Below, piece by piece: positions 470 to 31,800 of a stretch of DNA of 64,000 bases; the first letter of the stretch is position 1, and each line of letters opens with the position of its first letter. A program made the translations under genes and the position numbers. The notes beneath the pieces are model-generated. The model did not search any database, was not told where the DNA came from, and saw only the letters and a program-made list of their open reading frames with translations. The DNA is taken from assembly GCA_964023205.1 (NCBI GenBank), contig OZ026833.1:37426366-37490365 (forward strand), in the 5' to 3' direction. This stretch comes from Lutraria lutraria. Taxonomy: Eukaryota; Mollusca; Bivalvia; Venerida; Mactridae.

Positions 470-2878
470 GTTGAAATGCTGAATGCATTACGGTGACCCT
501 GACCTTGATGACCATTGAGACCAAGGCCTTGCCATCAATCCGTGTGCCAAGCTTCCATCTGAAGTTGGTATCCCAAGATGAGATCCACTTCCAGGAGTCG
601 ACACATCCGACTGCTGAAATTAAGAAAATACCCATTAATACACAGGGATCTGTTTGCAGATCATGTAAATTGCAAGATGGACAAAAACAAATATGCAGAC
701 GACAGACCAATTCAACCGTTCCATCTGAAGATGAAACATCAAAAAGCAAAACCCTTTACAATCAAGTGATAATACGAACGTTGAAATGCTGGATGCATTA
801 CGGTGACCCTGACCTTGGTGACCATTGAGACCAAGGCCTTGCCATCAATCCGTGTGCCAAGCTTCCATCTGAAGTTGGTATCCCTCGATGAGGTCCACTT
901 CCAGGAGTCGACACATCCGACTGCTAAAATAAAGAAAATACTTATCAATACAGAGGGATCTGTTGGTAGATCATGTAAATTGCAAGATGGACAAAAACAA
1001 ATATGCAGACGATAGACCAATTCAACAGTTCCATCTAAAGAAGAAACATTAAAAAGCAAAATCCCTTACAGTCAAGTGATAATACTTACGTTAAAACGCT
1101 GGATGCATTACGGTGACCCTGACCTTGGTGACCATTGAGACCAAGGCCTTGCCATCAATCCCTGTGCCAAGCTTCCATCTGAAGTTGGTATCCCTAGATG
1201 AGATCCACTTCCAGGAGTCGACACATCCGACTGCTGAAATAAAGAAAACACCCATTAATACAGAGGGATCTGTTGGCAGATCATGTTAATTGCAAGATGG
1301 GACAAAAACAAATATGCAGACGACAGACCAATTCAACGGTTCCATCTGAAGTTGAAATGTCAAAAAGCAAAACCCTTTCCAATCATGTGATAATACTTAC
1401 ATTGAAACGCTGGATGCATAATGGTGACCCTGACCTTGGTGACCATTGAGACAAAGGCCTTGCCATCAATCCGTGTGCCAAGCTTCCATCTGAAGTTGGT
1501 ATCCCTAGATGAGATCCACTTCCAGGAGTCGACACATCCGACTGCTGAAATAAAGAAAATACTCATTAATACAGAGGGATCTGTTGTTAGATCATGTAAA
1601 TTGCAAGCGACAAAAACATACATGCAGACGACATACCAATTCAACAGTTCCATCTGAAGAAGAAATGTTAAAAAAGCAAAATCCCTTACAGTCAAGTGGT
1701 AATACTTACGTTGAAACGCTGGATGCATTACGGTGACCCTGACCTTGGTGACCATTGAGACCAAGGCCTTGCCATCAATCCGTGTGCCAAGCTTCCTTCT
1801 GAAGTTGGTATCCCTAGATGAGATCCACTTCCAGGAGTTGACACATCCGACTGCTGAAATAAAGAAAATACTCATCAATACAGAGGGATCTGTTGGTAGA
1901 TCATGTAAATTGCAAGATGGACAAAACAAATATGCAGACGATAGACCAATTCAACAGTTCCATCTAAAGAAGAAATGTTAAGAAGCAAAACCCCTTACAA
2001 CCAAGTGATAATACTTACGTTGAAACGCTGTATCCATTACGGTGACCCTGACCTTGGTGACCATTGAGACCAAGGCCTTGCCATCAATCCGTGTGCCAAG
2101 CTTCCATCTGAAGTTGGTATCCCTAGATGAGATCCACTTCCAGGAGTCGACACATCCGACTGCTGAAATAAAGAAAATACTCATCAATACAGAGGGATCT
2201 GTTGGTAGATCATGTTAATTGCAAGATGGACAAAAACAAATATGCAGATGACAGACCAATTCAACGATTCCATCTGAAGATGAAACGTCAAAAAGCAAAA
2301 CCCTTTACAATCATGTGATAATACTTACGTTGAAACGCTGGATGCATTACGGTGACCCTGACCTTGGTGACCATTGAGACCAAGGCCTTGCCAACAATCC
2401 GTGTGCCAAGCTTCCATCTGAAGTTGGTATCCCTAGATGAGATCCACTTCCAGGAGTCGACACATCCGACTGCTGAAATAAAGAAAATACTCATCAATAC
2501 AGAGGGATCTGTTGGTAGATCATGTAAATTGCAAGATGGACAAAACAAATATGCAGACGACAGACCAATTCAACAGTTCCATATGAAGAAGAAATGTTAA
2601 AAAGCAAAATCCCTTACAATCAAGTGGTAATACTTACGTTGAAATGCTGGATGCATTACGGTGACCCTGACCTTGGTGACCATTGAGACCAAGGCCTTGC
2701 CATCAATCTGTGTGCCAAGCTTCCTTCTGAAGTTGGTATCCCTAGATGAGATCCACTTCCAGGAGTCGACACATCCGACTGCTGAAATAAAGAAAATACC
2801 CATTAATACAGAGGGATCTGTTGGCAGATCATGTTAATTGCAAGATGGACAAAAACAAATATGCAGACGACAGACCAG
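470..2878 (-). repeat. Tandem exon array, block A (8 units of 310 bp)
   Basis: Minus-strand exon blocks lie at 470-613, 780-923, 1090-1233, 1401-1544, 1710-1853, 2019-2162, 2329-2472 and 2638-2781. Each is 144 bp, preceded on the minus strand by a T-rich tract plus CAG and followed by GTAAGT. The 780 copy belongs to the Thr subfamily (WTSSRD), the others to the Ile subfamily (WISSRD). The 1090 copy has CAA changed to TAA in its last complete codon. The 1401 copy ends T|GTAAGT instead of C|GTAAGT. The block stops inside a unit at 2878, where a hAT-like element is inserted. Confidence 0.9.
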
Positions 2879-4726
2879 CAGGGTTTTCATTATCTTTTGA
2901 GTCAAGGGATAAAGTTTGAAATCCAAGCGATAGGCCTGGGGTCAAGGGGGCGGCCTTAGCCCCCTTGTGGGTCTAGGGCAACGCCCTGGTAGGGGGACCA
3001 GGGGGGCAAAGACCCCCAGGAAGCTCCTGTAATTTAAGCATTTTGAGTGGCAAATTTTTATTATTTCTGTGCTTCTTTTAGCCAGTTTCTATTCGGAAAT
3101 GAAATGTTTGATGATAATAAAAATCAAAACTAAACACCATTTCTAGTGTTCTTTTTCCTACCAACCATGGCAAGAGTCTTTAACTTTATCTTTGTTTACT
3201 CAGCCAATGAGTTCTCAAATTTTGATTGAATGAAAGGAAAAAATCCCCAACTAAAACTTGTAAGAAAAACAACAACCCATTTTCAATTCTTCTATTCATA
3301 TTTATCAATCATTTGCAAAATAACAATCATATTAATAAAATTTCATATAACATAAACATTTGTAGTTAAGACATCTCGCACTATAATGAGATTAATCTTT
3401 TGTATAATTATAGGTATTTATATTGATCAGTGATCAAAGAAATAGCATGATACTATTCTTTTGTCTGTATATCATTTATTCAAATAGAAATTAATTTATT
3501 TGAGAAATAAACAAGACAAAATAGGAGAAATGAGTTGATTGGTAGGAAAGGAGACAAATCTCTATCACAAAGTTAACAGATTGTAACTTCAATTCCTTTG
3601 GCTCTCACTCATTTTATCTTAATTGTTGAACATTGCAATATGAATATTATTAGCACTGTGTCCTGGCAAATGGTGAATTCATCCTGAATGCGTGTCACAA
3701 GATTAAACATCAAAGATAAGATGCCCCAGTTAGAACAGATTATCATTAAACACCCATTAAATGATGTATGGTTGCACAATATGTAGTGCCGTTATCCGAA
3801 ATTTGTCGACTGGAATTCGTATACTTTATTGAAATATAAGTGTAACAACGACCATTCTTGAAAATTAACGAGCCTTTGGTGTTTAGTTGGTTTTAATCAA
3901 GTTAATGCTTAATTAAACATAATATTACATAACATTAGATTCAATAACTATCAAAACGTGATTGTCAAGTGAAGTGTTAACAATTTTCGGAACATATGAC
4001 AGGGCCATGGGCCGTACGGTCTGGTACATTTTTGTTTCAATTGAACTGGCGATGCAGGAATGAAGAATTCACAACTAACTGGATAAAATTATCATCTGCA
4101 TTATGAATCACAGCTTGGAGCAATTGAAATTGGTGTTGATCATGTTGATAGGTGCAAACAAACAACATACATCGACATGGTCAATTTAAATATGACTGAC
4201 AAGTTGCCGACTTTTATGTATATCGTATTGGGCGAGCAGAAATTATTTTGGTCGCCCGATCATTTTTTTACTCATCAGTGACCAGGGCGAGCGGGCGAGT
4301 GCTAAGACTCCAGTGAGAACGAACTTCAGAATTTCGTATCGGCAAATTTACTGTTTAGCATTTAATTTTGACGGAAAAACAATGTATTTCATCGCACGAT
4401 TTGCTTACCAGATCGGCGTGTAAAGCCAAAGCTTTACGTTTATTTTCGTTCGATTTTTGTTCTATTTCTCTCTTGTGGTGCAGAAATCCGTAACTGTATT
4501 AAACGCGAATGCCTGTTGGTAGTTGCCTAGTCCACTAATCAATCAAAAGCCTCGTTTCGTTATACTCTCAATACTGATGACAAAACGGTGTTATAGTACA
4601 ATATTTCAATGCAATTTCTACTACGTAAACAAATTCGTCTTTACTTTTGCTGACGGAATTTCAACCAATATAAAGATGATTTCAACCGATGGTTTCATCG
4701 GGTATCGGCTGTTATTGAAAACCCTG
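2879..4726. mobile_element. Non-autonomous hAT-like element inserted in the array
   Basis: Termini are CAGGGTTTTCA on both sides in inverted orientation. The array unit breaks off at 'gacagacca' and resumes at 'gactgacca', a 9-bp near-duplication with one mismatch, so the insertion is well delimited. Just inside the left end is a GC-rich hairpin (2942-2966, CAAGGGGGC paired with GCCCCCTTG), and GC-rich 'gggcgagc' sequence lies near 4230-4300. No transposase frame is present, so any movement would have depended on an enzyme made elsewhere. The hAT assignment rests on the terminus and duplication length only. Confidence 0.7.
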
Positions 4727-5339
4727 GACTGACCAATTCAATGGTTCCATCTGAAGATGAAATGTCAAAAAGCAAAACCCTTTACAATCATGTGATAATA
4801 CTTACGTTGAAACGCTGGATGCATTACGGTGACCCTGACCTTGGTGACCATTGAGACCAAGGCCTTGCCATCAATCCGTGTGCCAAGCTTCCATCTGAAG
4901 TTGGTATCCCAAGATGAGATCCACTTCAAGGAGTCGACACATCCGACTGCTGAAATAAAGAAAATACCCATTAATACACAGGGATCTGTTGGTAGATCAT
5001 GTTAATTGCAAGATGGACAAAAACAAATCTGCAGACGACAGACCAATTCAACGGTTCCATCTGAAGATGAAACATCAAAAACCAAAACCCTTTACAATCA
5101 TGTGATAATACGTACGTTGAATTGCTGGATGCATTACGGTGACCCTGACCTTGGTGACCATTGAGACCAAGGCCTTGCCATCAATCCGTGTGCCAAGCTT
5201 CCATCTGAAGTTGGTATCCCTCGATGAGGTCCACTTCCAGGAGTCGACACATCCGACTGCTGAAATAAATAAAATACTTATCAATACAGAGGGATCTGTG
5301 GGAAGATCATGTAAATTGCAAGATGGACAAAAACAAATA
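4727..5339 (-). repeat. Tandem exon array, block B1 (2 units)
   Basis: Exons at 4806-4949 (Trp of the DSWKW motif is Leu, TTG) and 5116-5259 (Thr subfamily). Both keep CAG acceptor and GT donor; the 5116 donor is GTACGT. The block is cut by a MITE at a TA dinucleotide in the 'acaaatatgcagacg' part of the spacer. Confidence 0.9.
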
Positions 5340-5931
5340 ATGTAGAACTGGTTTTATTCGCGTTAGTTTTATTTTCGCTAATATTCACGAATCGAATACC
5401 TCGCGAATTCATGAATGTCGCGAATAAATGCTGAGTTTTATATATTCGATAAAGAGTATGTCCGAAAATAAGTCAGTTATAGTATTTTATCGTAAATATA
5501 ATCAGTTTAGTTAATCTGTTGAAAGCAAGATATTAACAATAAACATGTACCTTTAAAGTTTACAATCTTAATTTTTCTATAATATTGCCTTTACTGAACT
5601 ATCGTTTATTGAAAAATTTTGGACATCATTTGAACATACCAGTAACAGTTTTTCACACTTAATTACCTACTGTTTGTAAAACATAACTTCTACAACAATT
5701 ACAAACTATTATCAATCTATTGTTATTACATATAAAACATTGAATCACAACTTAAATGTCTAACAGATCAGGAGTGACACACACATATCAAAGCAATGAC
5801 AGCATGTCTTTGATCGCACTTTAATCCTGCCTGACAACGTCAAGAATTCATTAATACGCGAATAAAGAAAACAGCTGATTTTTAACAAAAAACGCGAAAT
5901 TTTGACCTCGCGAAATTAAAGCATTCTACAG
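5340..5931. mobile_element. TTCGCG-type MITE, array copy 1
   Basis: A 592-bp insert between TA dinucleotides (5338-5339 and 5932-5933). Imperfect terminal inverted repeats read TGTAGAACTGGTTTTATTCG on the left and TGTAGAATGCTTTAATTTCG on the right, with CGCGAA-rich subterminal sequence. There is no open frame. A TA duplication suggests mobilisation by a Tc1/mariner-like enzyme, but the family is not certain. By eye it is identical to 7330-7921 and 10093-10684. Confidence 0.8.
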
Positions 5932-5933
5932 TA

Positions 5934-6551
5934 TGCAGACGATAGACCAATTCAACAGTTCCATCTAAAGAAGAAATGTTAAGAAGCAAAATCCCTTACA
6001 ATCAAGTGGTAATACTTACGTTGAAACGCTGGATGCATTACGGTGACCCTGACCTTGGTGACCATTGAGACCAAGGCCTTGCCATCAATCCGTGTGCCAA
6101 GCTTCCTTCTGAAGTTGGTATCCCTAGATGAGATCCACTTCCAGGAGTCGACACATCCGACTGCTGAAATCAAGAAAATACTCATCAATACAGAGGGATC
6201 TGTTGGTAGATCATGTAAATTGCAAGATTGACAAAACAAATATGCAGATGATAGACCAATTCAACGATTCCATCTGAAGATGAAACGTCAAAAAGCAAAA
6301 CCCTTTACAATCATGTGATAATACTTACGTTGAAACGCTGGATGCATTACAGTGACCCTGACCTTGGTGACCATTGAGACCAAGGCCTTGCCATCAATCC
6401 GTGTGCCAAGCTTCCTTCTGAAGTTGGTTTCCCTAGATGAGATCCACTTCCAGGAGTCGACACATCCGACTGCTGAAATAAAGAAAATACTCATCAATAC
6501 AGAGGGATCTGTTGGTAGATCATGTAAATAGCAAGATGGACAAAACAAATA
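5934..6551 (-). repeat. Tandem exon array, block B2 (2 units)
   Basis: Exons at 6020-6163 (Arg variant, FRRK) and 6329-6472 (FRRK). Both are open on the minus strand with intact splice signals. The block ends at the truncated MITE. Confidence 0.9.
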
Positions 6552-6707
6552 TGACACACACATATCAAAGCAATGACGGCATGTCTTTGATCGCACATTA
6601 ATCCTGCCTGACGACGCCACAAATTCATAAATATGCGAATAAAGAAACAGCTGAATTTTAACAAAAAACGCGAAATTTTGACCTCGCGAAATTAAAGCGT
6701 TCTACAG
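6552..6707. mobile_element. TTCGCG-type MITE, truncated older copy
   Basis: The right 156 bp of the same MITE, sitting at the homologous spacer position and ending in the same 'ctacag|tatgcagacg' junction. It lacks about 435 bp of the left part and differs at several bases (for example 'gacggcatg' and 'gacgccac') from the three full copies, so it is older or has diverged separately. Confidence 0.75.
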
Positions 6708-6709
6708 TA

Positions 6710-7329
6710 TGCAGACGATAGACCAATTCAACAGTTCCATCTAAAGAAGAAATGTTAAGAAGCAAAATCCAATACAATCAAGAGGTAATACTTACGTTGA
6801 AACGCTGGATGCATTACGGTGACCCTGACCTTGGTGACCATTGAGACCAAGGCCTTGCCATCAATCCGTGTGCCAAGCTTCCATCTGAAGTTGGTATCCC
6901 TAGATGAGATCCACTTCTAGGAGTCGACACATCCGACTGCTGAAATAAAGAAAATACCAATTAATACAGAGGGATCTGTTGGCAGATCATGTTGATTGCA
7001 AGATGGACAAAAACAAATATGCAGACGACAGACCAATTCAACGGTTCCATCTGAAGATGAAACGTCAAAAAGCAAAACCCTTTACAATCATGTGATAATA
7101 CTTACGTTGAAACGCTGGATAAATTATGGTGACCCTGACCTTGGTGACCATTGAGACCAAGGCCTTGCCATCAATCCGTGTGCCAAGCTTCCATCTGAAG
7201 TTGGTATCCCTAGATGAGATCCACTTCCAGGAGTCGACACATCCGACTGCTGAAATAAAGAAAATACTCATCAATACAGAGGGATCTGTTGGTAGATCAT
7301 GTAAATTGCAAGATGGACAAAAACAAATA
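6710..7329 (-). repeat. Tandem exon array, block B3 (2 units)
   Basis: Exons at 6796-6939 and 7106-7249. The first carries TAG in place of the second-motif TGG (DSWKW becomes DS-stop-KW). The second is open and has the VTIIYPAFQ ending. Confidence 0.9.
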
Positions 7330-7921
7330 ATGTAGAACTGGTTTTATTCGCGTTAGTTTTATTTTCGCTAATATTCACGAATCGAATACCTCGCGAATTC
7401 ATGAATGTCGCGAATAAATGCTGAGTTTTATATATTCGATAAAGAGTATGTCCGAAAATAAGTCAGTTATAGTATTTTATCGTAAATATAATCAGTTTAG
7501 TTAATCTGTTGAAAGCAAGATATTAACAATAAACATGTACCTTTAAAGTTTACAATCTTAATTTTTCTATAATATTGCCTTTACTGAACTATCGTTTATT
7601 GAAAAATTTTGGACATCATTTGAACATACCAGTAACAGTTTTTCACACTTAATTACCTACTGTTTGTAAAACATAACTTCTACAACAATTACAAACTATT
7701 ATCAATCTATTGTTATTACATATAAAACATTGAATCACAACTTAAATGTCTAACAGATCAGGAGTGACACACACATATCAAAGCAATGACAGCATGTCTT
7801 TGATCGCACTTTAATCCTGCCTGACAACGTCAAGAATTCATTAATACGCGAATAAAGAAAACAGCTGATTTTTAACAAAAAACGCGAAATTTTGACCTCG
7901 CGAAATTAAAGCATTCTACAG
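7330..7921. mobile_element. TTCGCG-type MITE, array copy 2
   Basis: 592 bp between TA dinucleotides, at the same spacer position as copy 1 and visually identical to it. Same site and same sequence mean it was copied with the surrounding array rather than inserted independently. Confidence 0.8.
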
Positions 7922-7923
7922 TA

Positions 7924-10092
7924 TGCAGACGATAGACCAATTCAACAGTTCCATCTAAAGAAGAAATGTTAAGAAGCAAAATCCCTTACAATCAAGTGGT
8001 AATACTTACGTTGAAACGCTGGATGCATTACGGTGACCCTGACCTTGGTGACCATTGAGACCAAGGCCTTGCCATCAATCCGTGTGCCAAGCTTCCTTCT
8101 GAAGTTGGTATCCCTAGATGAGATCCACTTCCAGGAGTCGACACATCCGACTGCTGAAATCAAGAAAATACTCATCAATACAGAGGGATCTGTTGGTAGA
8201 TCATGTAAATTGCAAGATTGACAAAACAAATATGCAGACGATAGACCAATTCAACGATTCCATCTGAAGATGAAATGTCAAAAAGCAAAACCCTTTACAA
8301 TCATGTGATAATACTTACGTTGAAACGCTGGATGCATTACGGTGACCCTGACCTTGGTGACCATTGAGACCAAGGCCTTGCCATCAATCCGTGTGCCAAG
8401 CTTCCATCTGAAGTTGGTATCCCTAGATGAGATCCACTTCCAGGAGTCGACACATCCGACTGCTGAAAAAAAGAAAATACTCATCAATACAGAGGGATCT
8501 GTTGGTAGATCATGTAAATTGCAAGATGGACAAAAACAAATATGCAGACGACAGATCAATTCAACGATTTCATCTGATGATGAAACGTCAAAAAGCAAAA
8601 CCCTTTACAATCATGTGATCATACTTACGTTGAAACGCTGGATGCATTACGGTGACCCTGACCTTGGTGACCATTGAGACCAAGGCCTTGCCATCAATCC
8701 GTGTGCCAAGCTTCCATCTGAAGTTGGTATCCCTAGATGAGATCCACTTCCAGGAGTCGACACATCCGACTGCTGAAATAAAGAAAATACTCATCAATAC
8801 AGAGGGATCTGTTGGTAGATCATGTAAATTGCAAGATGGACAAAAACAAATATGCAGACGACAGACCAATTCAACAGTTCAATCTGAAGAAGAAATGTTA
8901 AGAAGCAAAATCCCTTACAATCAAGTGATAATACTTACGTTGAAACGCTGGATGCATTACGGTGACCCTGACCTTGGTGACCACTGAGACCAAGGCCTTG
9001 CCATCAATCCGTGTGCCAAGCTTCCATCTGAAGTTGGTATCCCTAGATGAGATCCACTTCTAGGAGTCGACACATCCGACTGCTGAAATAAAGAAAATAC
9101 CAATTAATACAGAGGGATCTGTTGGCAGATCATGTTGATTGCAAGATGGACAAAAACAAATATGCAGACGACAGACCAATTCAACGGTTCCATCTGAAGA
9201 TGAAACGTCAAAAAGCAAAACCCTTTACAATCATGTGATAATACTTACGTTGAAACGCTGGATAAATTACGGTGACCCTGACCTTGGTGACCATTGAGAC
9301 CAAGGCCTTGCCATCAATCCGTGTGCCAAGCTTCCATCTGAAGTTGGTATCCCTAGATGAGATCCACTTCCAGGAGTCGACACATCCGACTGCTAAAATA
9401 AAGAAAATACTCATCAATACAGAGGGATCTGTTGGTAGATCATGTAAATTGCAAGATGGACAAAAACAAATATGCAGACGACAGACCAATTCAACAGTTC
9501 AATCTGAAGAAGAAATGTTAAGAAGCAAAATCCTTTACAATCAAGTGATAATACTTACGTTGAAACGCTGGATGCATTACGGTGACCCTGACCTTGGTGA
9601 CCACTGAGACCAAGGCCTTGCCATCAATCCGTGTGCCAAGCTTCCATCTGAAGTTGGTATCCCTAGATGAGATCCACTTCTAGGAGTCGACACATCCGAC
9701 TGCTGAAATAAAGAAAATACCAATTAATACAGAGGGATCTGTTGGCAGATCATGTTGATTGCAAGATGGACAAAAACAAATATGCAGACGACAGACCAAT
9801 TCAACGGTTCCATCTGAAGATGAAACGTCAAAAAGCAAAACCCTTTACAATCATGTGATAATACTTACGTTGAAACGCTGGATAAATTATGGTGACCCTG
9901 ACCTTGGTGACCATTGAGACCAAGGCCTTGCCATCAATCCGTGTGCCAAGCTTCCATCTGAAGTTGGTATCCCTAGATGAGATCCACTTCCAGGAGTCGA
10001 CACATCCGACTGCTGAAATAAAGAAAATACTCATCAATACAGAGGGATCTGTTGGTAGATCATGTAAATTGCAAGATGGACAAAAACAAATA
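7924..10092 (-). repeat. Tandem exon array, block B4 (7 units)
   Basis: Exons at 8010-8153, 8319-8462, 8629-8772, 8939-9082, 9249-9392, 9559-9702 and 9869-10012. The 8939 and 9559 copies carry the Trp-to-TAG stop and alternate with open copies. Together with the preceding MITE, this block forms a 2763-bp higher-order unit (7330-10092) repeated at 10093-12855. Confidence 0.9.
8939..9082 (-). pseudogene. Array exon with in-frame TAG (subfamily of six)
   Basis: Minus-strand codon six reads TAG instead of TGG. The same change occurs at 6796-6939, 9559-9702, 11702-11845, 12322-12465 and 13562-13705. These copies share other markers ('taccaattaatac' and 'gatcatgttgattgc' in the spacer), so they are one lineage spread by duplication and not repeated mutation. 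Splice signals are intact, so inclusion would truncate the product; they would behave as skipped or poison exons if the array is transcribed. Confidence 0.7.
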
Positions 10093-10684
10093 ATGTAGAA
10101 CTGGTTTTATTCGCGTTAGTTTTATTTTCGCTAATATTCACGAATCGAATACCTCGCGAATTCATGAATGTCGCGAATAAATGCTGAGTTTTATATATTC
10201 GATAAAGAGTATGTCCGAAAATAAGTCAGTTATAGTATTTTATCGTAAATATAATCAGTTTAGTTAATCTGTTGAAAGCAAGATATTAACAATAAACATG
10301 TACCTTTAAAGTTTACAATCTTAATTTTTCTATAATATTGCCTTTACTGAACTATCGTTTATTGAAAAATTTTGGACATCATTTGAACATACCAGTAACA
10401 GTTTTTCACACTTAATTACCTACTGTTTGTAAAACATAACTTCTACAACAATTACAAACTATTATCAATCTATTGTTATTACATATAAAACATTGAATCA
10501 CAACTTAAATGTCTAACAGATCAGGAGTGACACACACATATCAAAGCAATGACAGCATGTCTTTGATCGCACTTTAATCCTGCCTGACAACGTCAAGAAT
10601 TCATTAATACGCGAATAAAGAAAACAGCTGATTTTTAACAAAAAACGCGAAATTTTGACCTCGCGAAATTAAAGCATTCTACAG
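10093..10684. mobile_element. TTCGCG-type MITE, array copy 3
   Basis: 592 bp between TA dinucleotides, visually identical to copies 1 and 2 and at the same position of the unit. Offset from copy 2 is exactly 2763 bp. Confidence 0.8.
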
Positions 10685-10686
10685 TA

Positions 10687-13600
10687 TGCAGACGATAGAC
10701 CAATTCAACAGTTCCATCTAAAGAAGAAATGTTAAGAAGCAAAATCCCTTACAATCAAGTGGTAATACTTACGTTGAAACGCTGGATGCATTACGGTGAC
10801 CCTGACCTTGGTGACCATTGAGACCAAGGCCTTGCCATCAATCCGTGTGCCAAGCTTCCTTCTGAAGTTGGTATCCCTAGATGAGATCCACTTCCAGGAG
10901 TCGACACATCCGACTGCTGAAATCAAGAAAATACTCATCAATACAGAGGGATCTGTTGGTAGATCATGTAAATTGCAAGATTGACAAAACAAATATGCAG
11001 ACGATAGACCAATTCAACGATTCCATCTGAAGATGAAATGTCAAAAAGCAAAACCCTTTACAATCATGTGATAATACTTACGTTGAAACGCTGGATGCAT
11101 TACGGTGACCCTGACCTTGGTGACCATTGAGACCAAGGCCTTGCCATCAATCCGTGTGCCAAGCTTCCATCTGAAGTTGGTATCCCTAGATGAGATCCAC
11201 TTCCAGGAGTCGACACATCCGACTGCTGAAAAAAAGAAAATACTCATCAATACAGAGGGATCTGTTGGTAGATCATGTAAATTGCAAGATGGACAAAAAC
11301 AAATATGCAGACGACAGATCAATTCAACGATTTCATCTGATGATGAAACGTCAAAAAGCAAAACCCTTTACAATCATGTGATCATACTTACGTTGAAACG
11401 CTGGATGCATTACGGTGACCCTGACCTTGGTGACCATTGAGACCAAGGCCTTGCCATCAATCCGTGTGCCAAGCTTCCATCTGAAGTTGGTATCCCTAGA
11501 TGAGATCCACTTCCAGGAGTCGACACATCCGACTGCTGAAATAAAGAAAATACTCATCAATACAGAGGGATCTGTTGGTAGATCATGTAAATTGCAAGAT
11601 GGACAAAAACAAATATGCAGACGACAGACCAATTCAACAGTTCAATCTGAAGAAGAAATGTTAAGAAGCAAAATCCCTTACAATCAAGTGATAATACTTA
11701 CGTTGAAACGCTGGATGCATTACGGTGACCCTGACCTTGGTGACCACTGAGACCAAGGCCTTGCCATCAATCCGTGTGCCAAGCTTCCATCTGAAGTTGG
11801 TATCCCTAGATGAGATCCACTTCTAGGAGTCGACACATCCGACTGCTGAAATAAAGAAAATACCAATTAATACAGAGGGATCTGTTGGCAGATCATGTTG
11901 ATTGCAAGATGGACAAAAACAAATATGCAGACGACAGACCAATTCAACGGTTCCATCTGAAGATGAAACGTCAAAAAGCAAAACCCTTTACAATCATGTG
12001 ATAATACTTACGTTGAAACGCTGGATAAATTACGGTGACCCTGACCTTGGTGACCATTGAGACCAAGGCCTTGCCATCAATCCGTGTGCCAAGCTTCCAT
12101 CTGAAGTTGGTATCCCTAGATGAGATCCACTTCCAGGAGTCGACACATCCGACTGCTGAAATAAAGAAAATACTCATCAATACAGAGGGATCTGTTGGTA
12201 GATCATGTAAATTGCAAGATGGACAAAAACAAATATGCAGACGACAGACCAATTCAACAGTTCAATCTGAAGAAGAAATGTTAAGAAGCAAAATCCTTTA
12301 CAATCAAGTGATAATACTTACGTTGAAACGCTGGATGCATTACGGTGACCCTGACCTTGGTGACCACTGAGACCAAGGCCTTGCCATCAATCCGTGTGCC
12401 AAGCTTCCATCTGAAGTTGGTATCCCTAGATGAGATCCACTTCTAGGAGTCGACACATCCGACTGCTGAAATAAAGAAAATACCAATTAATACAGAGGGA
12501 TCTGTTGGCAGATCATGTTGATTGCAAGATGGACAAAAACAAATATGCAGACGACAGACCAATTCAACGGTTCCATCTGAAGATGAAACGTCAAAAAGCA
12601 AAACCCTTTACAATCATGTGATAATACTTACGTTGAAACGCTGGATAAATTATGGTGACCCTGACCTTGGTGACCATTGAGACCAAGGCCTTGCCATCAA
12701 TCCGTGTGCCAAGCTTCCATCTGAAGTTGGTATCCCTAGATGAGATCCACTTCCAGGAGTCGACACATCCGACTGCTGAAATAAAGAAAATACTCATCAA
12801 TACCGAGGGATCTGTTGGTAGATCATGTAAATTGCAAGATGGACAAAAACAAATATGCAGACGACAGACCAATTCAACGGTTCCATCTGAAGAAGAAATG
12901 TTAAGAAGCAAAATCCCTTACAATCAAGTGATAATACTTACGTTGAAATGCTGGATGCATTACGGTGACCCTGACCTTGGTGACCATTGAGACCAAGGCC
13001 TTGCCATCAATCCGTGTGCCAAGCTTCCATCTGAAGTTGGTATCCCTAGATGAGATCCACTTCCAGGAGTCGACACATCCGACTGCTGAAAAAAAGAAAA
13101 TACTCATCAATACAGAGGGATCTGTTGGTAGATCATGTAAATTGCAAGATGGACAAAAACAAATATGCAGACGACAGATCAATTCAACGATTTCATCTGA
13201 TGATGAAACGTCAAAAAGCAAAACCCTTTACAATCATGTGATCATACTTACGTTGAAACGCTGGATGCATTACGGTGACCCTGACCTTGGTGACCATTGA
13301 GACCAAGGCCTTGCCATCAATCCGTGTGCCAAGCTTCCATCTGAAGTTGGTATCCCTAGATGAGATCCACTTCCAGGAGTCGACACATCCGACTGCTGAA
13401 ATAAAGAAAATACTCATCAATACAGAGGGATCTGTTGGTAGATCATGTAAATTGCAAGATGGACAAAAACAAATATGCAGACGACAGACCAATTCAACAG
13501 TTCAATCTGAAGAAGAAATGTTAAGAAGCAAAATCCCTTACAATCAAGTGATAATACTTACGTTGAAACGCTGGATGCATTACGGTGACCCTGACCTTGG

Positions 13601-14672
13601 TGACCACTGAGACCAAGGCCTTGCCATCAATCCGTGTGCCAAGCTTCCATCTGAAGTTGGTATCCCTAGATGAGATCCACTTCTAGGAGTCGACACATCC
13701 GACTGCTGAAATAAAGAAAATACCAATTAATACAGAGGGATCTGTTGGCAGATCATGTTGATTGCAAGATGGACAAAAACAAATATGCAGACGACAGACC
13801 AATTCAACGGTTCCATCTGAAGATGAAACGTCAAAAAGCAAAACCCTTTACAATCATGTGATAATACTTACGTTGAAACGCTGGATAAATTACGGTGACC
13901 CTGACCTTGGTGACCATTGAGACCAAGGCCTTGCCATCAATCCGTGTGCCAAGCTTCCATCTGAAGTTGGTATCCCTAGATGAGATCCACTTCCAGGAGT
14001 CGACACATCCGACTGCTGAAATAAAGAAAATACTCATCAATACCGAGGGATCTGTTGGTAGATCATGTAAATTGCAAGATGGACAAAAACAAATATGCAG
14101 ACGACAGACCAATTCAACGGTTCCATCTGAAGAAGAAATGTTAAGAAGCAAAATCCCTTACAATCAAGTGATAATACTTACGTTGAAATGCTGGATGCAT
14201 TACGGTGACCCTGACCTTGGTGACCATTGAGACCAAGGCCTTGCCATCAATCCGTGTGCCAAGCTTCCATCTGAAGTTGGGATCCCTAGATGAGATCCAC
14301 TTCCAGGAGTCGACACATCCGACTGCTGAAATAAAGAAAATACTCATCAATACAGAGGGATCTGTTGGTAGATCATGTAAATTGCAAGATGGACAAAAAC
14401 AAATATGCAGACGACAGACCAATTCAACGGTTCCATCTGAAGAAGAAATGTTAAGAAGCAAAATCCCTTACAATCAAGTGATAATACTTACGTTGAAACG
14501 CTGGATGCATTACGGTGACCCTGACCTTGGTGACCATTGAGACCAAGGCCTTGCCATCAATCCGTGTGCCAAGCTTCCATCTGAAGTTGGGATCCCTAGA
14601 TGAGATCCACTTCCAGGAGTCGACACATCCGACTGCTGAAATAAAGAAAGTACTTATCAATACAGAGGGCTC
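10687..14672 (-). repeat. Tandem exon array, block B5 (13 units, longest run)
   Basis: Exons at 10773-10916, 11082-11225, 11392-11535, 11702-11845, 12012-12155, 12322-12465, 12632-12775, 12942-13085, 13252-13395, 13562-13705, 13872-14015, 14182-14325 and 14492-14635. The 11702, 12322 and 13562 copies have the TAG stop. The 14182 and 14492 copies have DPNF instead of DTNF. The part to 12855 is a near-perfect repeat of 7330-10092; a clear difference is 'tgctaaaata' near 9393 against 'tgctgaaata' at the matching site. The block is cut at 'gagggctc' by the element that starts at 14673. Confidence 0.9.
12942..13085 (-). CDS. Representative 144-bp array exon (48-residue repeat)
   Basis: Given as the model for all regular copies. 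On the minus strand the sequence runs TTTCTTTTTTTCAG (acceptor), then 144 bp beginning CA-GTC-GGA, ending TTT-CAA-C, then GTAAGTATTA (donor). Both boundaries are phase 1, so joining any two copies makes a Pro codon (C+CA) and keeps frame. The peptide reads VGCVDSWKWISSRDTNFRWK, then LGTRIDGKALVSMV, then TKVRVTVMHPAFQ. It has one Cys, three Trp, no signal peptide and no membrane segment. I do not recognise the family; symmetric 1-1 exons are typical of extracellular modular proteins, but that is only a general association. Copies vary at a few codons: Ile/Thr in W(I/T)SS, Trp/Arg/Gly in FR(W/R/G)K, and MH/IY before PAFQ. Transcription and splicing are inferred from signals only. Confidence 0.5.
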
Positions 14673-18004: not shown

Positions 18005-18380
18005 GGGATCTGTTGGTATATCATGTAAATTGCAAGATGGACGAAAACAAATATGCAGACGACAGACCAATTCAACGGTGCCATATTTTGACAATGACCT
18101 TGATGACCCTACAGACCAAGGCCATAAATGTCAAGAAATAAACACAATTAAGCCAGAATACTTACGTTGAAATGTTGAACGCATTACGGTGACCCTGACC
18201 TTGGTGACCATTGAGACCAAGGCCTTGCCATCAATCCGTGTGCCAAGCTTCCATCTGAAGTTGGTTTCCCTCGATGAGGTCCACTTCAAGGAGTTGACAC
18301 ATCCGACTGCTGAAATAGCAAAAATACCCATTAATACATAGGGATATGTTGGCAGATCATGTAAATTGCAAGATGTACAA
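18005..18380 (-). repeat. Tandem exon array, block C1 (1 exon plus boundary fragment)
   Basis: Unit sequence resumes at 18005. A boundary-module fragment at 18075-18165 is followed by one exon at 18166-18309 (Thr subfamily, DSLKWTSSRE, Trp replaced by Leu). Acceptor context is slightly altered (minus strand TTTTTGCTATTTCAG) but usable; donor is GTAAGT. Confidence 0.85.
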
Positions 18381-19348: not shown

Positions 19349-19626
19349 ACAACAAAAACAAATATGCAGACGACAGACCAATTAAATGGTTCGGTCTGAA
19401 GAAGAAACGTCAAAAAGCAAAATCCCTTACAATCAAGTGATAATACTTACGTTGAAACCCTGTACGCATTACGGTGACCCTGACCTTGGTGACCATTGAG
19501 ACCAAGGCCTTGCCATCAATCCGTGTGCCAAGCTTCCATCGCAAGTTGGGATCCCTCGATGAGGTCCACTTCCAGGAGTCGACACATCCGACTGCTGTAA
19601 TAAAGAAAATACTCATCAATACAGAT
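19349..19626 (-). repeat. Tandem exon array, block C2 (1 unit)
   Basis: Exon at 19451-19594, Thr subfamily with DPNLRWK and the ending VMRTGFQ. Signals are intact (minus strand TTTCTTTATTACAG; GTAAGT). Cut at 'aatacagat' by a hAT-like element. Confidence 0.85.
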
Positions 19627-22600: not shown

Positions 22601-22676
22601 GGATAATCAAATAATGATTTAATAACCGGTTAATTGGACAAACGAACGGTTAATCGATTAACTGTTTACATCCCTA
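19627..22676. mobile_element. hAT-like element, 3.05 kb, with nested MITE
   Basis: Ends are TAGGTATGTCAA on the left and, inverted, TAGGGATGTAAA on the right, followed inward on both sides by AATCGGTTAATCG / AATCGATTAACCG type sequence. Flanking 8-mers ATACAGAT and ATAGAGAG match at 6 of 8 positions, fitting an aged 8-bp hAT duplication. It contains the TA-flanked MITE at 20286-21061. No transposase frame remains. The TIR resembles that of 32258-33579. Confidence 0.65.
20286..21061. mobile_element. TA-flanked MITE with G-tract ends
   Basis: Inverted termini CCGTATTCCC...GGGAATACGG lie between TA dinucleotides. Subterminal sequence is G/C-tract rich ('aaacgcccccgggggcg' on the left; 'ggggggagcgtttaaacgggg' type sequence on the right). 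No coding capacity. A Tc1/mariner-type duplication is inferred from the TA. Confidence 0.7.
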
Positions 22677-23210
22677 ATAGAGAGTGATCTCTTGTTGAGA
22701 GAGTGAAAATAAAGAGTAAAACATCAATTTGGGTTGCTAATATACAGACTGTAACAGTTGTTGGAGGTGACCGTTCATGGAGGTTACACTGTATATGCCT
22801 ACAAATGCCAAGAATGAAGCAAGACCACTCACGATTAGTCGCTATACGCCATATTTTGTCCATGACCTTGATGACCCTACAGACCAAGGCCATAAATGTC
22901 AAAAATAAAAGCTTACAATTAAGCCAGAATACTTACGTTGAAATGTTGAACGCATTACGGTGACCCTGACCTTGGTGACCATTGAGACCAAGGCCTTGCC
23001 ATCAATCCGTGTGTCAAGCTTCCATCTGAAGTTGGTATCCCTCGATGAGGTCCACTTCCAGAAGTCGACACATCCGACTGCTGAAATAAAGAAAATACCC
23101 ATTAATACAGAGGGATGTGTCTGCAGATCAAGGGATGTGTCTGCAGATCGAGGGATGTGTCTGCAGATCATGTAAATTGCAAGATTGACAAAAACAAATA
23201 TGCAGACGAC
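22677..23210 (-). repeat. Boundary module copy 2 and array block C3 (1 exon)
   Basis: 22677-22936 matches the module at 205-469. The exon at 22937-23080 is Thr subfamily, open, with GTAAGT donor and a TTTCTTTATTTCAG acceptor. Upstream on the minus strand the spacer carries a local triplication of a 24-bp piece (23112-23171, 'gggatgtgtctgcagatc' three times), unique to this unit. In the module the minus strand also shows ATGGCCTTGGTCTGTAGGG followed by a GTGAGT donor near 22840, a possible decayed second exon type. Confidence 0.8.
23112..23171. repeat. 24-bp triplication in an array spacer
   Basis: Three consecutive copies of 'agggatgtgtctgcagatc' plus a short linker, where other units have one. 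Replication slippage is the simplest explanation. Confidence 0.8.
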
Positions 23211-23263
23211 AAGATGACCCAAGTTCTTCTTGCAATTATCCATTATAAATTGTTTTACATATA

Positions 23264-23608
23264 CAGTAAAACCTCGATTATCCGAACACCGATTATCCGA
23301 ATACCCGGTATTATCCTAATAAAATCTACGGTCCCGATTACGTCTCTATATATTTCAAGTACAACGAATTTTACGAATACCTAGTGTAATCCGAATACAT
23401 TATTTGGTCCCTAAAGTTATTTTCACACCATTATTCAAAATCGTCAATTGATAACAATTGCCGATTGAGAAACGAATGTTGTGTGACAAACAATGTGTAA
23501 CATCAATTCATACACGAAGCGTGTCAACAGTTTAAGTATCATTAAGTTGACCATATTGTTTGTTATGATTTTATACTAAACGACATTCGAATAATCAGGG
23601 TTTTACTG
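23264..23608. mobile_element. pogo/Tigger-like MITE, 345 bp
   Basis: Inverted termini CAGTAAAACCTCGATTATCC (left) and CAGTAAAACCCTGATTATTC (right, reversed) lie between TA dinucleotides. It is a shortened relative of 38429-39357, sharing the left ~180 bp and part of the right side. The CAGT...ATCCGAA terminus with TA duplication is characteristic of pogo/Tigger-type elements. Confidence 0.8.
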
Positions 23609-24014
23609 TACATCTAACACATTTTTACACTTTCACAAAATGTTTGTCAGTTGTAGGGTATGCTCCTTTAATGCTTAAATTAGACACAGGATCGCATAAA
23701 ATAACTTTTTTTTATAACATTTTTTCGTAAAATAAATCTCCGTACGACTATTTCATACTGGAAAATCGGACCGTACTGCGAGCGTTTATTCATTATTATG
23801 ATAATTAGTTAAATTCTGCAATGTTTCCTCTTTATCAGAAGACATAAATAAAGTGAAAGTAGACGGTATAAAGTGAAAGTAGACGGTTTACCGGCAAATA
23901 TATTAAGATTCAATCCGATGAATTAAATGTGAGTTTACTACAGAATTTAAATAGGTGACCATTAAAATTATGTAAAACGCGCGACATTGACGCATGGTTT
24001 TAGACCAGTCAATT

Positions 24015-25779: not shown

Positions 25780-26291
25780 AGGCTATTTATTTGCCAGTGA
25801 AAACAATTGCTACTAATTAACCAACATTGATCGTTTAGTTCCTAAAGTCATCTGGTAGATCTAAAATTAGACTAAAACAACAACATCAACACTTTTTCAT
25901 TTATCCACCAGTTACATGCTGAACAGATCAGATCAACAGTATACCATACATGACCACTAATTCATAGTCCCTTATGCACTTATTATCGTTAAAAACAAGG
26001 TCCTGACCGGAAACAATGTATGCCTCGCGGCAATCTCATTGTCAGAGGTGTGAAGTCAGTGATGCAAAATGCGGGTGTGCAATCGACCGTGGTCGTAATA
26101 TCGGGGTCAAATGACACACCGTAAAAAAAAATGGTCGGACATAAGTGGTAGTATTACGTTATGGCGGGGTGGTAGCAATTTTGGATCAAAAGACCATTAA
26201 ACATAGAAGGAAAAAATCTGTTCTTTTAAAAAATGCCTGTATTAGCAGGGTGATCGTAATTTCGGGATGGTTGTTAGGCGGGGTTTAGGTG
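25780..26291. other. No gene seen
   Basis: AT-rich linker between the inverted-repeat element and array block D1; no convincing repeat or splice-site pair. The last 60 bases ('gggtgatcgtaatttcggg') may be a short element end. Confidence 0.3.
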
Positions 26292-26734
26292 TACTTATCA
26301 ATACAGAGGGATCTGTTGGCAGATCATTTAAATTGCAAGATGGACAAAAACAATTATGCAGACGACAGACCAATTTAACGATTCCATCTGAAGAAGAAAC
26401 GTTAAAAAAAAAATCCCTTACAATCAAGTAATAATACTTACGTTGAAACGCTGGATGCATTACGGTGACCCTGACCTTGGTGACCATTGAGACCAAGGCC
26501 TTGCCATCAATCCGTGTGCCAAGCTTCCATCTGAAGTTGGTATCCCTCGATGAGGTCCACTTCCAGGAGTCGACACATCCGACTGCTGAAATAAAGAAAA
26601 TACCCATCAATACACAGGGATCTGTTGGTAGATCATGTAAATTGCAAGATGGACAAAAACAAATATGCAGACGACAGACCAATTCAACGATTCCATCTGA
26701 AGAAGAAACGTTAAAAAGCAAAATCCCTTACAAT
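26292..26734 (-). repeat. Tandem exon array, block D1 (1 exon)
   Basis: One partial unit plus the exon at 26442-26585 (Thr subfamily, open, intact signals). The unit is interrupted after 'cccttacaat' by a CAGTG-terminated element and resumes at 28838. Confidence 0.9.
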
Positions 26735-28837
26735 CAGTGTTTGACACTAACTTTTTGAGCATGGTGGTTTACAGGACCGGTAACTTCTCAAACCTACCGG
26801 TCCTTCTACACTTTCACAGGTCCTTCAATTTTAGTGATAATTTAAAATATAAAAAAAACAATTCAACAAAACGTTCTCCCATCCCATTTTTATTGATGTA
26901 CTATTCTGATTGTTTCTTTTTAAATAAAAGCAATTGTAACTTATATGAAAGACTTGTTCATATTCATTCTAATAAGTCACTGCAAGCCTTTTCTGTATTG
27001 AAGATATTAAATGATTAAGAATCATCATGTGCATTTACTCAAATAAAATTGTAATGATTTACTTATAAGACTATTTTGTCATTAATCTAAAATGATTAAA
27101 TCTACAACAGCTTCGTACCTTACCAAGTAATCCAGTAACAATTTTAAATTATTCAAACACAAAAATATCAATAATTGTGTGACACATTTAAATTACGAAA
27201 TTCCTGTTCAATTTAAGGGAGTAAAAAATTAACCAGAGAGCAAGATATCAGTGTCCGATCTAGAATGCGCGATTGCGAGATTCACGCTAATTTTTTGAAA
27301 ATCCCCCATTTTAAATGATCGGGCGCGTGACATTCCTGTCAAAATCCCCCATTCTCAGTAAGCGGATGCGAGACAAACTACCTTAGGATGTTCGTCATAA
27401 TCGTGGAATCCCGATTTATTTAAGATCTACTAGCTTTAATAGGTTACATGATATCGAAAGTAGAAATGTTATCATTCCGATGGTTGCCTATTCTGCACGA
27501 CACTTTAAGATAAAGCATGGAACCAAGTATTTTCCTTCCGGTTGCGTGATATCTGTCCATAATATGAATCGAAACCATGTGCGAACGAAAATTATTTCAT
27601 GATATTTTTCTTTTACCATCATACGTTGTTACTGTTGATACTTTTTGCCCATATATTTTTATTTAAATGTGGAGATATCTAATTGACGTGCCGAATAACA
27701 AAATTTTAATACTAGTTTTTAAATAAAATTTCCCGAATAACCGTTTCGTTTTTTAATGATTATACAACTTACTTAAACCACGCTAAGCAATTAAACGTCG
27801 CTATAAAGCAGACGATCAAGAACTTTGATAATGAGTCAATGGCAATGTCACAGCCGTCAAAAAGGAGAATTACCAACTTTTTCGATACGTGATGTACCCC
27901 AAAATGTAAAACTCTTGAATCCGGATAAAAATACCGTCTTTAACGGATTTTGATAAGTTGTGTGGGTATCGATGCATTGAGATCCAATGAGTTTTCTGAT
28001 GTTAATATGAACACGCCCCCATACTTTAAAAAAATCCCCAAACATTTTTTAAGGTAGGGGGGAAAGTCCCCCCCACTTTCAAAATCCTAGATCGGACACT
28101 GGATATACGTCATTTGATTGGCAGATAACATCATTCATGACGTCAGTTACACTAACTTTAAACCTACTTAATTTCAGCAGCGCTAACAATAGAAAATCAA
28201 TATAGTTACAAAGTGCACCAGTTCAACCCGTTTGTGCAAAAATATGTGTGGACATAAATTATTGCGTTTTTGTGCTCTGAAAGTGTCCCAAGTGATATTT
28301 TTTTGGTTACTCGGCCGTAAGTCGAGTTGGATTTTACGGACAATTTCAGGACCCATATTTGATCGACTTATGGCCAAGTATATATGGTAATTTGGATTCT
28401 TTTGGTGGCATGAGTGAAAAATCGTTGAAGTACTTGATCAAAAATATTTATTACAACACGAATACAAGAGGTAAAGATCATACTTTAATTAAATCGGGCA
28501 CTAGTTGACGAAGGGTACGACTACGAGTAGATTGATTCATGTATGAGTTTACCAGTCTCTTAAGCGCACAGACTTTATTATGCTGAACGTCGCAGTTATG
28601 TCTAAAAATAGATACATAATTCTGGCCCTGTAACCTGCATATATAAAACACCGTTAATGTTAAACATTGTTAACTGCGATTATGCTGATACGTCGTAGTT
28701 TATATTTATTTTAAGAATGGGATTTCCTATTTGCACAATCTATCGGACACCCGGGCCGACCAGGTCATGGATGTCATCGGTCCTTGGTGATTTCTGTCGG
28801 TCTCGGACCGACGGACTAGAGTAAGTGTCAAACACTG
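26735..28837. mobile_element. CAGTGTTTGACAC element, 2.1 kb, in the array
   Basis: Inverted termini CAGTGTTTGACACT on both sides. Flanks are ACAAT and GCAAT, a likely 5-bp duplication with one mismatch; the array reads straight through if the element is removed. Subterminal 'ggaccggtaac...accggtcc' and 'gggccgaccagg...ggaccgacgg' are GC-rich hairpin-forming. It contains a second element at 27249-28101. No transposase frame. Confidence 0.75.
27249..28101. mobile_element. CAGTGTCCGATC element, nested, 853 bp
   Basis: Inverted termini CAGTGTCCGATCTAG on both sides, with perfect 5-bp GATAT duplications (27244-27248 and 28102-28106). C/G-tract subterminal regions. It is nested inside 26735-28837, so it is the younger insertion. 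No coding capacity seen. Confidence 0.85.
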
Positions 28838-31800
28838 GCAATCAAGATATAATACTTACGTTGAAACGCTGAATGCATTACGGTGACCCTGACCTTGGTG
28901 ACCATTGAGACCAAGGCCTTGCCATCAATCCGTATGCCAAGCTTCCATCTGAAGTTGGTATCCCTAGATGAGATCCACTTCCAGGAGTCGACACATCCGA
29001 CTGCTGAAATTAAGAAAATACACATTAATACACAGGGATCTGTTGGCAGATCATGTAAATTGAAAGATGTACAGAAACAAATATGCAGACGACAGACCAA
29101 TTCAACAGTTCCATCTGAAGTTGAAACGTCAAAAAGCAAAACCCTTTACAATCATGTGATAATACTTACGTTGAAACGCTGGATGCATTACGGTGACCCT
29201 GACCTTGGTGACCATTGAGACCAAGGCCTTGCCATCAATCCGTGTGCCAAGCTTCCATCTGAAGTTGGTATCCCTCGATGAGGTCCACTTCAGGGAGTCG
29301 ACACATCCGACTGCTGAAATAAAGAAAATACCCATCAATACACAGGGATCTGTTGGTAGATCATGTAAATTGCAAGATGTACAGAAACAAATACGCAGAC
29401 GACAGACCAATTCAACGATTCCATCTGAAGAAGAAACGTTAAAAAGCAAAATCCCTTACAATCAAGATATAATACTTACGTTGAAACGCTGGATGCATTA
29501 TGGTGACCCTGACCTTGGTGACCATTGGGACCAAGGCCTTGCCATCAATCCGTGTGCCAAGCTTCCCTCTGAAGTTGGTATCCCTAGATGAGATCCACTT
29601 CCAGGAGTCGACACATCCGACTGCTGAAATTAAGAAAATACACATTAATACACAGGGATCTGTTGGCAGATCATGTAAATTGCAAGATGTACAGAAACAA
29701 ATATGCAGACGACAGACCAATTCAACGGTTCCATCTGAAGTTGAAACGTCAAAAAGCAAAACCCTTTACAATCATGTGATAATACGTACGTTGAAACGCT
29801 GGATGCATTACGGTGACCCTGACCTTGGTGACCATTGAGACCAAGGCCTTGCCATCAATCCGTGTGCCAAGCTTCCATCTGAAGTTGGTATCCCTCGATG
29901 AGGTCCACTTCAGGGAGTCGACACATCCGACTGCTGAAATAAAGAAAATACCCATCAATACACAGGGATCTGTTGGTAGATCATGTAAATTGCAAGATGT
30001 ACAGAAACAAATATGCAGACGACAGACCAATTCAACGATTCCATCTGAAGAAGAAACGTTAAAAAGCAAAATCCCTTACAATCAAAATATAATACTTACG
30101 TTGAAACGCTGGATGCATTACGGTGACCCTGACCTTGGTGACCATTGAGACCAAGGCCTTGCCATCAATCCGTGTGCCAAGCTTCCTTCTGAAGTTGGTA
30201 TCCCTAGATGAGATCCACTTCCAGGAGTCGACACATCCGACTGCTGAAATCAAGAAAATACTCATCAATACAGAGGGATCTGTTGGTAGATCATGTAAAT
30301 TGCAAGATTGACAAAACAAATATGCAGACGATAGACCAATTCAACGATTCCATCTGAAGAAGAAATGTTAAGAAGCAAAATCCAATACAATCAAGAGGTA
30401 ATACTTACGTTGAAACGCTGGATGCATTACGGTGACCCTGACCTTGGTGACCATTGAGACCAAGGCCTTGCCATCAATCCGTGTGCCAAGCTTCCATCTG
30501 AAGTTGGTATCCCTAGATGAGATCCACTTCCAGGAGTCGACACATCCGACTGCTGAAATTAAGAAAATACACATTAATACACAGGGATCTGTTGGTAGAT
30601 CATGTAAATTGCAAGATGGACAGAAACAAATATGCAGACGAAAGACCAATTCAACGATTCCATCTGAAGAAGAAATGTTAAAAAGCAAAATCCCTTACAG
30701 TCAAGTGATAATACTTACGTTGAAATGCTGAATGTATTACGGTGACCCTGACCTTGGTGACCATTGGGACCAAGGCCTTGCCATCAATCCGTGTGCCAAG
30801 CTTCCCTCTGAAGTTGGTATCCCTAGATGAGAATCCACTTTCAGGAGTCGACACATCCGACTGCTGAAATTAAGAAAATACACATTAATACACAGGGATC
30901 TGTTGGCTGATCATGTAAATTGCAAGATGTACAGAAACAAATATGCAGACGACAGACCAATTCAACAGTTCCATCTGAAGTTGAAACGTCAAAAAGCAAA
31001 ACCCTTTACAATTATGTGATAATACTTACGTTGAAACGCTGGATGCATTACGGTGACCCTGACCTTGGTGACCATTGAGACCAAGGCCTTGCCATCAATC
31101 TGTGTGCCAAGCTTCCTTCTGAAGTTGGTATCCCTAGATGAGATCCACTTCCAGGAGTCGACACATCCGACTGCTGAAATAAAGAAAATACTCATCAATA
31201 CAGAGGGATCTGTTGGTAGATCATGTAAATTGCAAGATGGACAGAAACAAATATGCAGACGAAAGACCAATTCAACGATTCCATCTGAAGAAGAAATGTT
31301 AAAAAGCAAAATCCCTTACAGTCAAGTGATAATACTTACGTTGAAACGCTGAATGTATTACGGTGACCCTGACCTTGGTGACCATTGGGACCAAGGCCTT
31401 GCCATCAATCCGTGTGCCAAGCTTCCCTCTGAAGTTGGTATCCCTAGATGAGATCCACTTTCAGGAGTCGACACATCTGACTGCTGAAATAAAGAAAATA
31501 CCCATTAATACACAGGGATCTGTTGGCAAATCATGTAAATTGCAAGATGTACAAAACAAATATGCAGACAACAGACCAATTCAACGGTTCCATCTAAAGA
31601 AGAAACGTTAAAAAGCAAAATTCCTTACAATCAAGTAATAATACTTACGTTGAAACGCTGGATGCATTACGGTGACCCTGACCTTGGTGACCATTGAGAC
31701 CAAGGCCTTGCCATCAATCCGTGTGCCAGGCTTCCATCTGAAGTTGGTATCCCTCGATGAGGTCCACTTCCAGGAGTCGACACATCCGACTGCTGAAATA

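Follow-up and report, generated by a model that had tools for sequence, protein, structure and literature searches.

Does a 31-kb run of near-identical 144-bp blocks, each bounded by splice-like signals, represent a protein gene, an RNA gene or the relic of one? The question is raised by a 64,000-bp stretch of the genome of the bivalve Lutraria lutraria (contig OZ026833.1, here C1:37426366-37490365, in an assembly of 728.5 Mb and 71 contigs), hereafter the window, in which an initial annotation described approximately 48 tandem symmetric exons on the minus strand between positions 470 and 31792. On balance, we favour the view that the repeat belongs to a dispersed family of RNA genes, multi-exon and probably non-coding, whose exons have been amplified in tandem. 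The evidence consists of the repeat anatomy, the constraint on the splice signals, the absence of coding constraint, the genome-wide distribution of the repeat and its linkage to a conserved leader block at the ten loci examined of 18.

Anatomy of the repeat

A strict minus-strand pattern (CAG-144-GTA[AC]GT) gave 45 exact matches in the window, and a relaxed pattern gave 48 full copies, each flanked by AG and GT, in agreement with the annotated number and strand. The exact 144-bp length holds for 47/48 copies, the copy at 30719-30863 being 145 bp long. As described, the acceptor is mostly CAG (46/48, the other two being TAG), and the donor is GTAAGT in 45 copies, GTACGT in two and GTTCGT in one. 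All 48 exons start with CA, and the last base is C in 47 and T in one. The proline noted at each joint is encoded by CCA in all copies but one, which has a serine. The claim that any combination of copies splices in frame is untrue for 9/48 copies, eight of which (1090, 6796, 8939, 9559, 11702, 12322, 13562 and 31340) carry in-frame stops and one a frameshift; the proposed frame is open in the remaining 39.

The repeat unit measures 310 bp (166 bp intron-like and 144 bp exon) and occupies blocks at 445-2877, 4727-14669 (broken by inserts) and 28839-31870, in addition to four isolated copies. A 24-bp exon piece, searched with up to three mismatches, occurs 50 times, compared with a mean of 0.00 in 100 shuffles, which excludes a chance origin. 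The features of the window, including a leader block and the acceptor of a second exon type (type C) described below, are as follows.

1..469, minus strand: downstream intron, leading to a degenerate type-C acceptor (TTTTTATTTCAG|CAGTTGG) immediately outside the left edge of the window
470..2877, minus strand: array block of 8 exons with a 310-bp period (starts 470, 780, 1090, 1401, 1710, 2019, 2329, 2638)
4727..5346, minus strand: 2 exons (4806, 5116) and flanking unit parts
5932..6553, minus strand: 2 exons (6020, 6329)
6708..7336, minus strand: 2 exons (6796, 7106)
7922..10099, minus strand: 7 exons (starts 8010, 8319, 8629, 8939, 9249, 9559, 9869)
10685..14669, minus strand: 13 exons (starts 10773, 11082, 11392, 11702, 12012, 12322, 12632, 12942, 13252, 13562, 13872, 14182, 14492)
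18166..18309, minus strand: isolated exon copy
19451..19594, minus strand: isolated exon copy with acceptor TATTACAG
22937..23080, minus strand: isolated exon copy
26442..26585, minus strand: isolated exon copy
28839..31870, minus strand: array block of 10 exons (starts 28860, 29170, 29480, 29790, 30100, 30409, 30719 (145 bp), 31030, 31340, 31649)
35385..35464, minus strand: 49th, partial exon (exon positions 65-144) with a GTACGT donor, fused to the leader block
35465..35618, minus strand: leader block, consisting of a 31-bp stretch (AAACATACTCTATATGCTTTCTGTTTTCTTT) and an exon-like hairpin core

Three identical copies of a 585-bp insert (5347-5931, 7337-7921 and 10100-10684) are found at one unit position in the array. 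Their ends, judged by eye, carry the short inverted sequences TGTAGAA/TTCTACA. The distance between the second and third copies is 2763 bp, a spacing reminiscent of a higher-order repeat, and a 154-bp insert at 6554-6707 is related to the 585-bp sequence.

Constraint on splice signals and exons

Conservation was analysed in 228 full copies, comprising the 48 copies of the window and 180 copies from 18/23 loci on C3, C4, C5, C9, C13 and C18; 17 partial or edge copies were left out. Since the 228 copies are mutually related, tests across positions are more reliable than tests across copies. AG and GT are kept in all of them, and GTAAGT in 220. Across 113 distinct contexts, positions +1, +2, +5, +6, -1 and -2 are invariant, and A(-22) changed once. 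The single change at these seven positions compares with a mean of 73.5 for random picks from the 60 nearest intron positions (P=1e-5; local pools, 5e-5); position -22, and none of the other six, was chosen after the profile had been seen. A branch-point motif, yTnAy, is present at -25..-21 in 103/113 distinct contexts, its free base showing the highest variability of the five.

When positions are counted outwards from each junction, conservation is high from +1 to +9, drops at +10, and is high again from approximately -18 to -1. Common variants per site number 0.11 at +1..+9 versus 0.90 at +10..+40 on the donor side, and 0.06 at -17..-1 versus 1.00 at -40..-18 on the acceptor side; the corresponding exon value is 0.17. 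The donor, branch point, pyrimidine tract and acceptor are thus all conserved, as would be the case in an array of spliced exons.

The exon is also conserved relative to the intron. Pairs of full tandem units from the window (37 units, 29 of them distinct) differ on average by 0.028 in the exon versus 0.079 in the intron. In an alignment of 174 distinct units, invariant sites amount to 84/144 in the exon versus 12/166 in the intron, although this alignment includes non-tandem upstream sequence, misaligned at the far end, which inflates intron variation. Substitutions are unevenly spread over the unit, unlike what is expected of a plain satellite. The conservation of splice signals and exon relative to the intron bears out the earlier remark that the repeat is hard to explain in that way.

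Absence of coding constraint

In the proposed frame, the 228 copies feature 76 unique changes (17 synonymous, 51 replacement and 8 stop), compared with a chance expectation of 19.6 synonymous changes and 4.3 stops. A dN/dS of 0.5 would give approximately 32 synonymous changes (5-95% range, 25-40), and the observed value falls below this range. No significant synonymous excess was found in any of the six frames over the 228 copies. The nearest to an excess is frame 0 (23 synonymous changes versus 18.1 expected, P=0.07), whose consensus contains a stop. Within the window alone, synonymous changes are in excess in frame 0 (17 versus 10.6 expected, P=0.006) and in deficit in the proposed frame (5/42, 11.4 expected, P=0.002); these hints were set aside because both fade over the 228 copies. 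The older variants (n=25) comprise 3 synonymous changes, 20 replacements and 2 stops, and the distribution of variable sites by codon position is flat (20/18/22). Stops are present in 31/228 copies, and the frame-breaking 145-bp form has been amplified on C4, where it accounts for 3/8 copies in the stretch read. Neither the synonymous excess nor the frame preservation of protein-coding tandem exons was observed.

Searches of Pfam, PDB and protein databases revealed no protein homologue. The four Pfam matches all lie under the curated cut-offs (best DUF7781, E=0.00052, 20 versus 25 bits), the one PDB match has E=0.63, and the protein databases gave no match at E up to 1. The core patterns were absent from the viral and bacterial/archaeal genome collections searched.

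Predicted RNA fold of the exon

The predicted consensus fold is more stable in the sense (-51.7 kcal/mol) than in the antisense orientation (-38.0 kcal/mol). Changes avoid the predicted paired sites, which contain 41/76 of them, a value equally low in 1/143 circular shifts; when the same test is restricted to exon positions 1-121, 0/120 shifts are as low. Natural variants are predicted to be more stable than matched random mutants in 77/96 cases. Taken together, these data suggest an RNA structure in the exon. A 15-bp run at exon positions 107-121 (CAAGGTCAGGGTCAC), invariant in 97 distinct exons, is reminiscent of nuclear-receptor half-sites.

Leader block and type-C exon

The leader block is located upstream of the arrays, i.e., at higher window coordinates. 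Its 31-bp stretch, which contains TCTATATG, is identical in 4/4 aligned loci and is followed by a hairpin core resembling the exon core. The leader is present at 18 distinct loci (21 rows), and at the ten of these that were examined, on C1, C7, C9 (two), C11, C13 (two), C15, C18 and C20, it is followed by the exon on the same strand, in the 144-bp form or, on C7, in a 135-bp form. This linkage was read in sequence on C1, C7, C11, C13 (13.7 Mb), C18 and at one C9 locus, was obtained by coordinates for the other C9 locus and C13 (12.8 Mb, approximately 20 kb away), and by colinear match for C15 and C20. The leader loci outside the ten map to C10 (two), C12 (three), C9:34.5M, C6 and C4. Five of the ten loci (C1, C18, two on C9 and C13 at 12.8 Mb) arose by recent duplication, their leaders being identical or almost so; at the other five, leaders are 78-89% like that of the window. 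The leader is preceded by AG in 4/4 aligned loci, and its putative donor reads GCAC(C/G)AAA(A/G)C|GTAAGC. It may correspond to a promoter plus first exon or, alternatively, to an internal exon.

The type-C exon is longer (239-242 bp), has an AG acceptor and a GTAAGT donor, and contains stops in all three frames in the four copies analysed from C11 and C13. A core like that of the 144-bp exon recurs both in the leader and in the type-C exon.

Genomic distribution and large shared segments

Across the genome, 609 sites match a 32-bp exon core pattern, five positions of which are open or half-open, compared with 0 for the reversed control. The first 100 of the 609 matches fall on C1, C3, C4 and C5, most of them within arrays whose period is approximately 308-310 bp; one match, on C4, is a single copy. 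The exon was also located on C1, C9, C13 and C18 (40 scored of 1129 candidates). Overall, exon arrays were found on eight chromosomes, including C11, where 33 listed exons extend over approximately 29 kb with a period of approximately 894 bp and alternate with the type-C exon.

A colinear, gapped segment exceeding 80 kb (window -10381 to at least 71215) is common to C1 and C18, with 97-99.7% identity in most pieces. At least parts of this segment are found on C9 (two places) and C13 (12.8 Mb). The second C13 locus (13.7 Mb) represents an older relative, with 76-90% similarity over most of the blocks that match. The extents of the shared segments are lower bounds. In the scanned stretches of the C1/C18 segment, no open reading frame longer than 150 codons was found outside the arrays. 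Loci may have spread by transposition or segmental duplication.

A 381-383-bp sequence (L010 9618-10000; C18:26206966-26209018) occurs with 99-100% identity at approximately 29 or more places, in several cases as inverted pairs 1.3-2.3 kb apart, and resembles a young transposon-like family. The 381-bp inverted repeat left of the window was considered as the end of a giant element and rejected: we read it as an unrelated young repeat, as it recurs many times and the C1/C9 match continues beyond it. Similarly, a host gene was rejected at 49199-49379 (plus strand), where a frame is conserved on C13. This frame belongs to a dispersed repeat of approximately 180 bp (141 matches), in which the frame is open in the large-duplication copies and carries stops in most others. 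Right of the window (L033, approximately 4860-6390, minus strand), pieces of open reading frames resemble a Tigger/pogo-type transposase. The window also features a 28-bp minisatellite (7 copies, 58829-59029) and a pair of dispersed repeats (23254-23579 and 38420-38775, 83% identical) with CGATTATCCGAATAC units.

Age of the constraint

Variants were grouped by age in the 130/174 units that align well, the other 44 being dropped. Singletons are similarly frequent in exon and intron (0.201 versus 0.221 per site). In contrast, variants found in 2-3 units are depleted fivefold in the exon (0.090 versus 0.457), and common variants threefold (0.167 versus 0.493, P=2e-5). Equal singletons combined with a depletion of common variants in the exon indicate that mutation rates match and that filtering differs.

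Proposed organization and alternative explanations

In the family of RNA genes that we favour, each unit would start with the conserved leader block (minus strand in the window), followed by a few to dozens of 144-bp exons, which sometimes alternate with the longer second exon type. The spliced non-coding RNA would contain, once per exon, a hairpin domain (GGCCUUGGU..ACCAAGGUC) followed by AGGGUCA. Selection would have retained the exon, donor, branch point and acceptor and no reading frame, and units would have spread through array growth, unequal exchange and very large duplications. Transcription, a promoter and a function of the RNA are all inferred from DNA. We put forward more tentatively, as possible rather than probable, the full version of this proposal, in which genome-wide multi-copy RNA genes made of dozens of near-identical spliced hairpin exons are selected for splicing and RNA form while arrays and loci spread.

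Several observations weigh against the RNA-gene family. The fold z-score is only -2.5 in one subfamily and -1.3 in a second. Compensatory base changes were looked for and none was seen, and the C7 exon lacks the 5' arm of the hairpin, so that an RNA structure is suggested rather than demonstrated. On C7, moreover, a 97-codon frame is open from an ATG through leader and exon. In the aligned-unit table, donor positions at the beginning of the alignment show no depletion (common variants, 0.556 per site), which we read as misalignment due to unequal introns because direct reading from the exons gives the opposite result. The isolated copies of C1 differ equally from those of C18/C9 in exon (9/1888) and flank (117/17262, or 77/16877 without one misplaced row), so that nothing shows selection on present copies. 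Whole-array C1/C18/C9 divergence (exon 1.5-1.8%, intron 3.1-3.5%, outside 0.5-0.7%) was set aside in favour of the isolated copies, as the pairing of copies within arrays is out of register. The most recent differences among copies look neutral. Filtering can be seen in variants of intermediate and greater age and is not seen in the most recent divergence, which implies either weak selection per copy or selection at source copies.

The main rival, which we regard as rather unlikely, is that the exon-intron unit of a once-functional RNA or protein gene was amplified like a satellite and spread by large duplications, leaving no working copy, the splice-like conservation predating amplification. 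The equal exon and flank rates of recent copies, the equal singletons, the stops and frameshifts amplified inside arrays, the presence of arrays on eight chromosomes and the lack of long open reading frames in the scanned stretches around those of C1/C18 are all consistent with such a fossil. However, variants of intermediate age are already depleted in the exon, and filtering thus seems to have gone on after the copies multiplied; in addition, the leader-then-exon order is kept at ten loci, five of which have diverged leaders. The suggestion that an exon-plus-intron unit was amplified after capture from a gene is partly right, given the dispersal of the arrays and the apparent neutrality of their youngest differences, but their source looks like a multi-exon RNA gene, not a protein gene. 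A giant repetitive protein, or a pool of alternative phase 1-1 protein exons, is very improbable. The 144-bp length corresponds to 48 codons in a symmetric phase, most window copies are open, the C7 frame joins leader and exon, and the synonymous deficit of the window could mean diversifying selection. Over 228 copies, however, this deficit fades and no frame has a significant coding signature, older variants are mostly replacements, variable sites are spread evenly over codon positions, stops and frameshifts have been amplified within arrays, the type-C exon is closed in all frames, and no homologue was found. At the DNA level, a protein-binding satellite block with incidental splice-like ends would account for the invariant 15-bp run and for the like core in the leader and type-C exon; it is improbable, since a binding site leaves the donor, branch-point and acceptor pattern unexplained.

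Comparison with known systems

Tandem satellites of animals have short periods, homogenised arrays, dispersed blocks and higher-order units, features common to this repeat. A plain satellite, however, is not known to carry a conserved leader or a constraint that follows splice signals and exon limits. Metazoan hammerhead retrozymes also form short dispersed tandem arrays with a structured RNA, but Rfam revealed no hammerhead ribozyme (window at gathering score; 1.1 kb at E up to 5) and no other match at gathering score in the window; a CLRN1-AS1 match (21.4 bits, with a cut-off at 48 bits; E=0.0061) was dismissed as a chance hit. Titin-like and mucin-like symmetric tandem-exon proteins feature exons of equal phase and equal length, as here, but the present exons lack codon constraint. 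Literature searches for mollusc tandem exons with satellites, FIRRE-type repeats, long non-coding RNAs with duplicated exons and a 310-bp bivalve satellite gave no match by title or abstract.

By architecture, the closest working analogue appears to be FIRRE. In the published account of this gene, copies of a repeating RNA domain (RRD) make up 7/13 human and 11/23 mouse exons and act as a nuclear retention signal, and FIRRE is a single non-coding locus whose repeats are rarely found elsewhere (PMC4820808). The likeness is one of anatomy: as in FIRRE, the repeat here coincides with predicted exons and is probably non-coding. In contrast, hundreds of copies are present here at many loci and chromosomes, in near-perfect tandem arrays with a period of 310 bp or longer. 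Since FIRRE repeats, by the same account, are nearly confined to one locus, the present family is not of the FIRRE kind by that feature. Other hallmarks of FIRRE-like RNAs are nuclear retention and the binding of hnRNPU. If correct, the RNA-gene reading would provide a natural case, replicated hundreds of times within a single genome, that separates selection on splicing and RNA form from coding. It would make the choice, skipping or circularisation of near-identical tandem exons directly testable, and would mean that exon-repeat RNA of the FIRRE type is not limited to one locus but can form a dispersed gene family.

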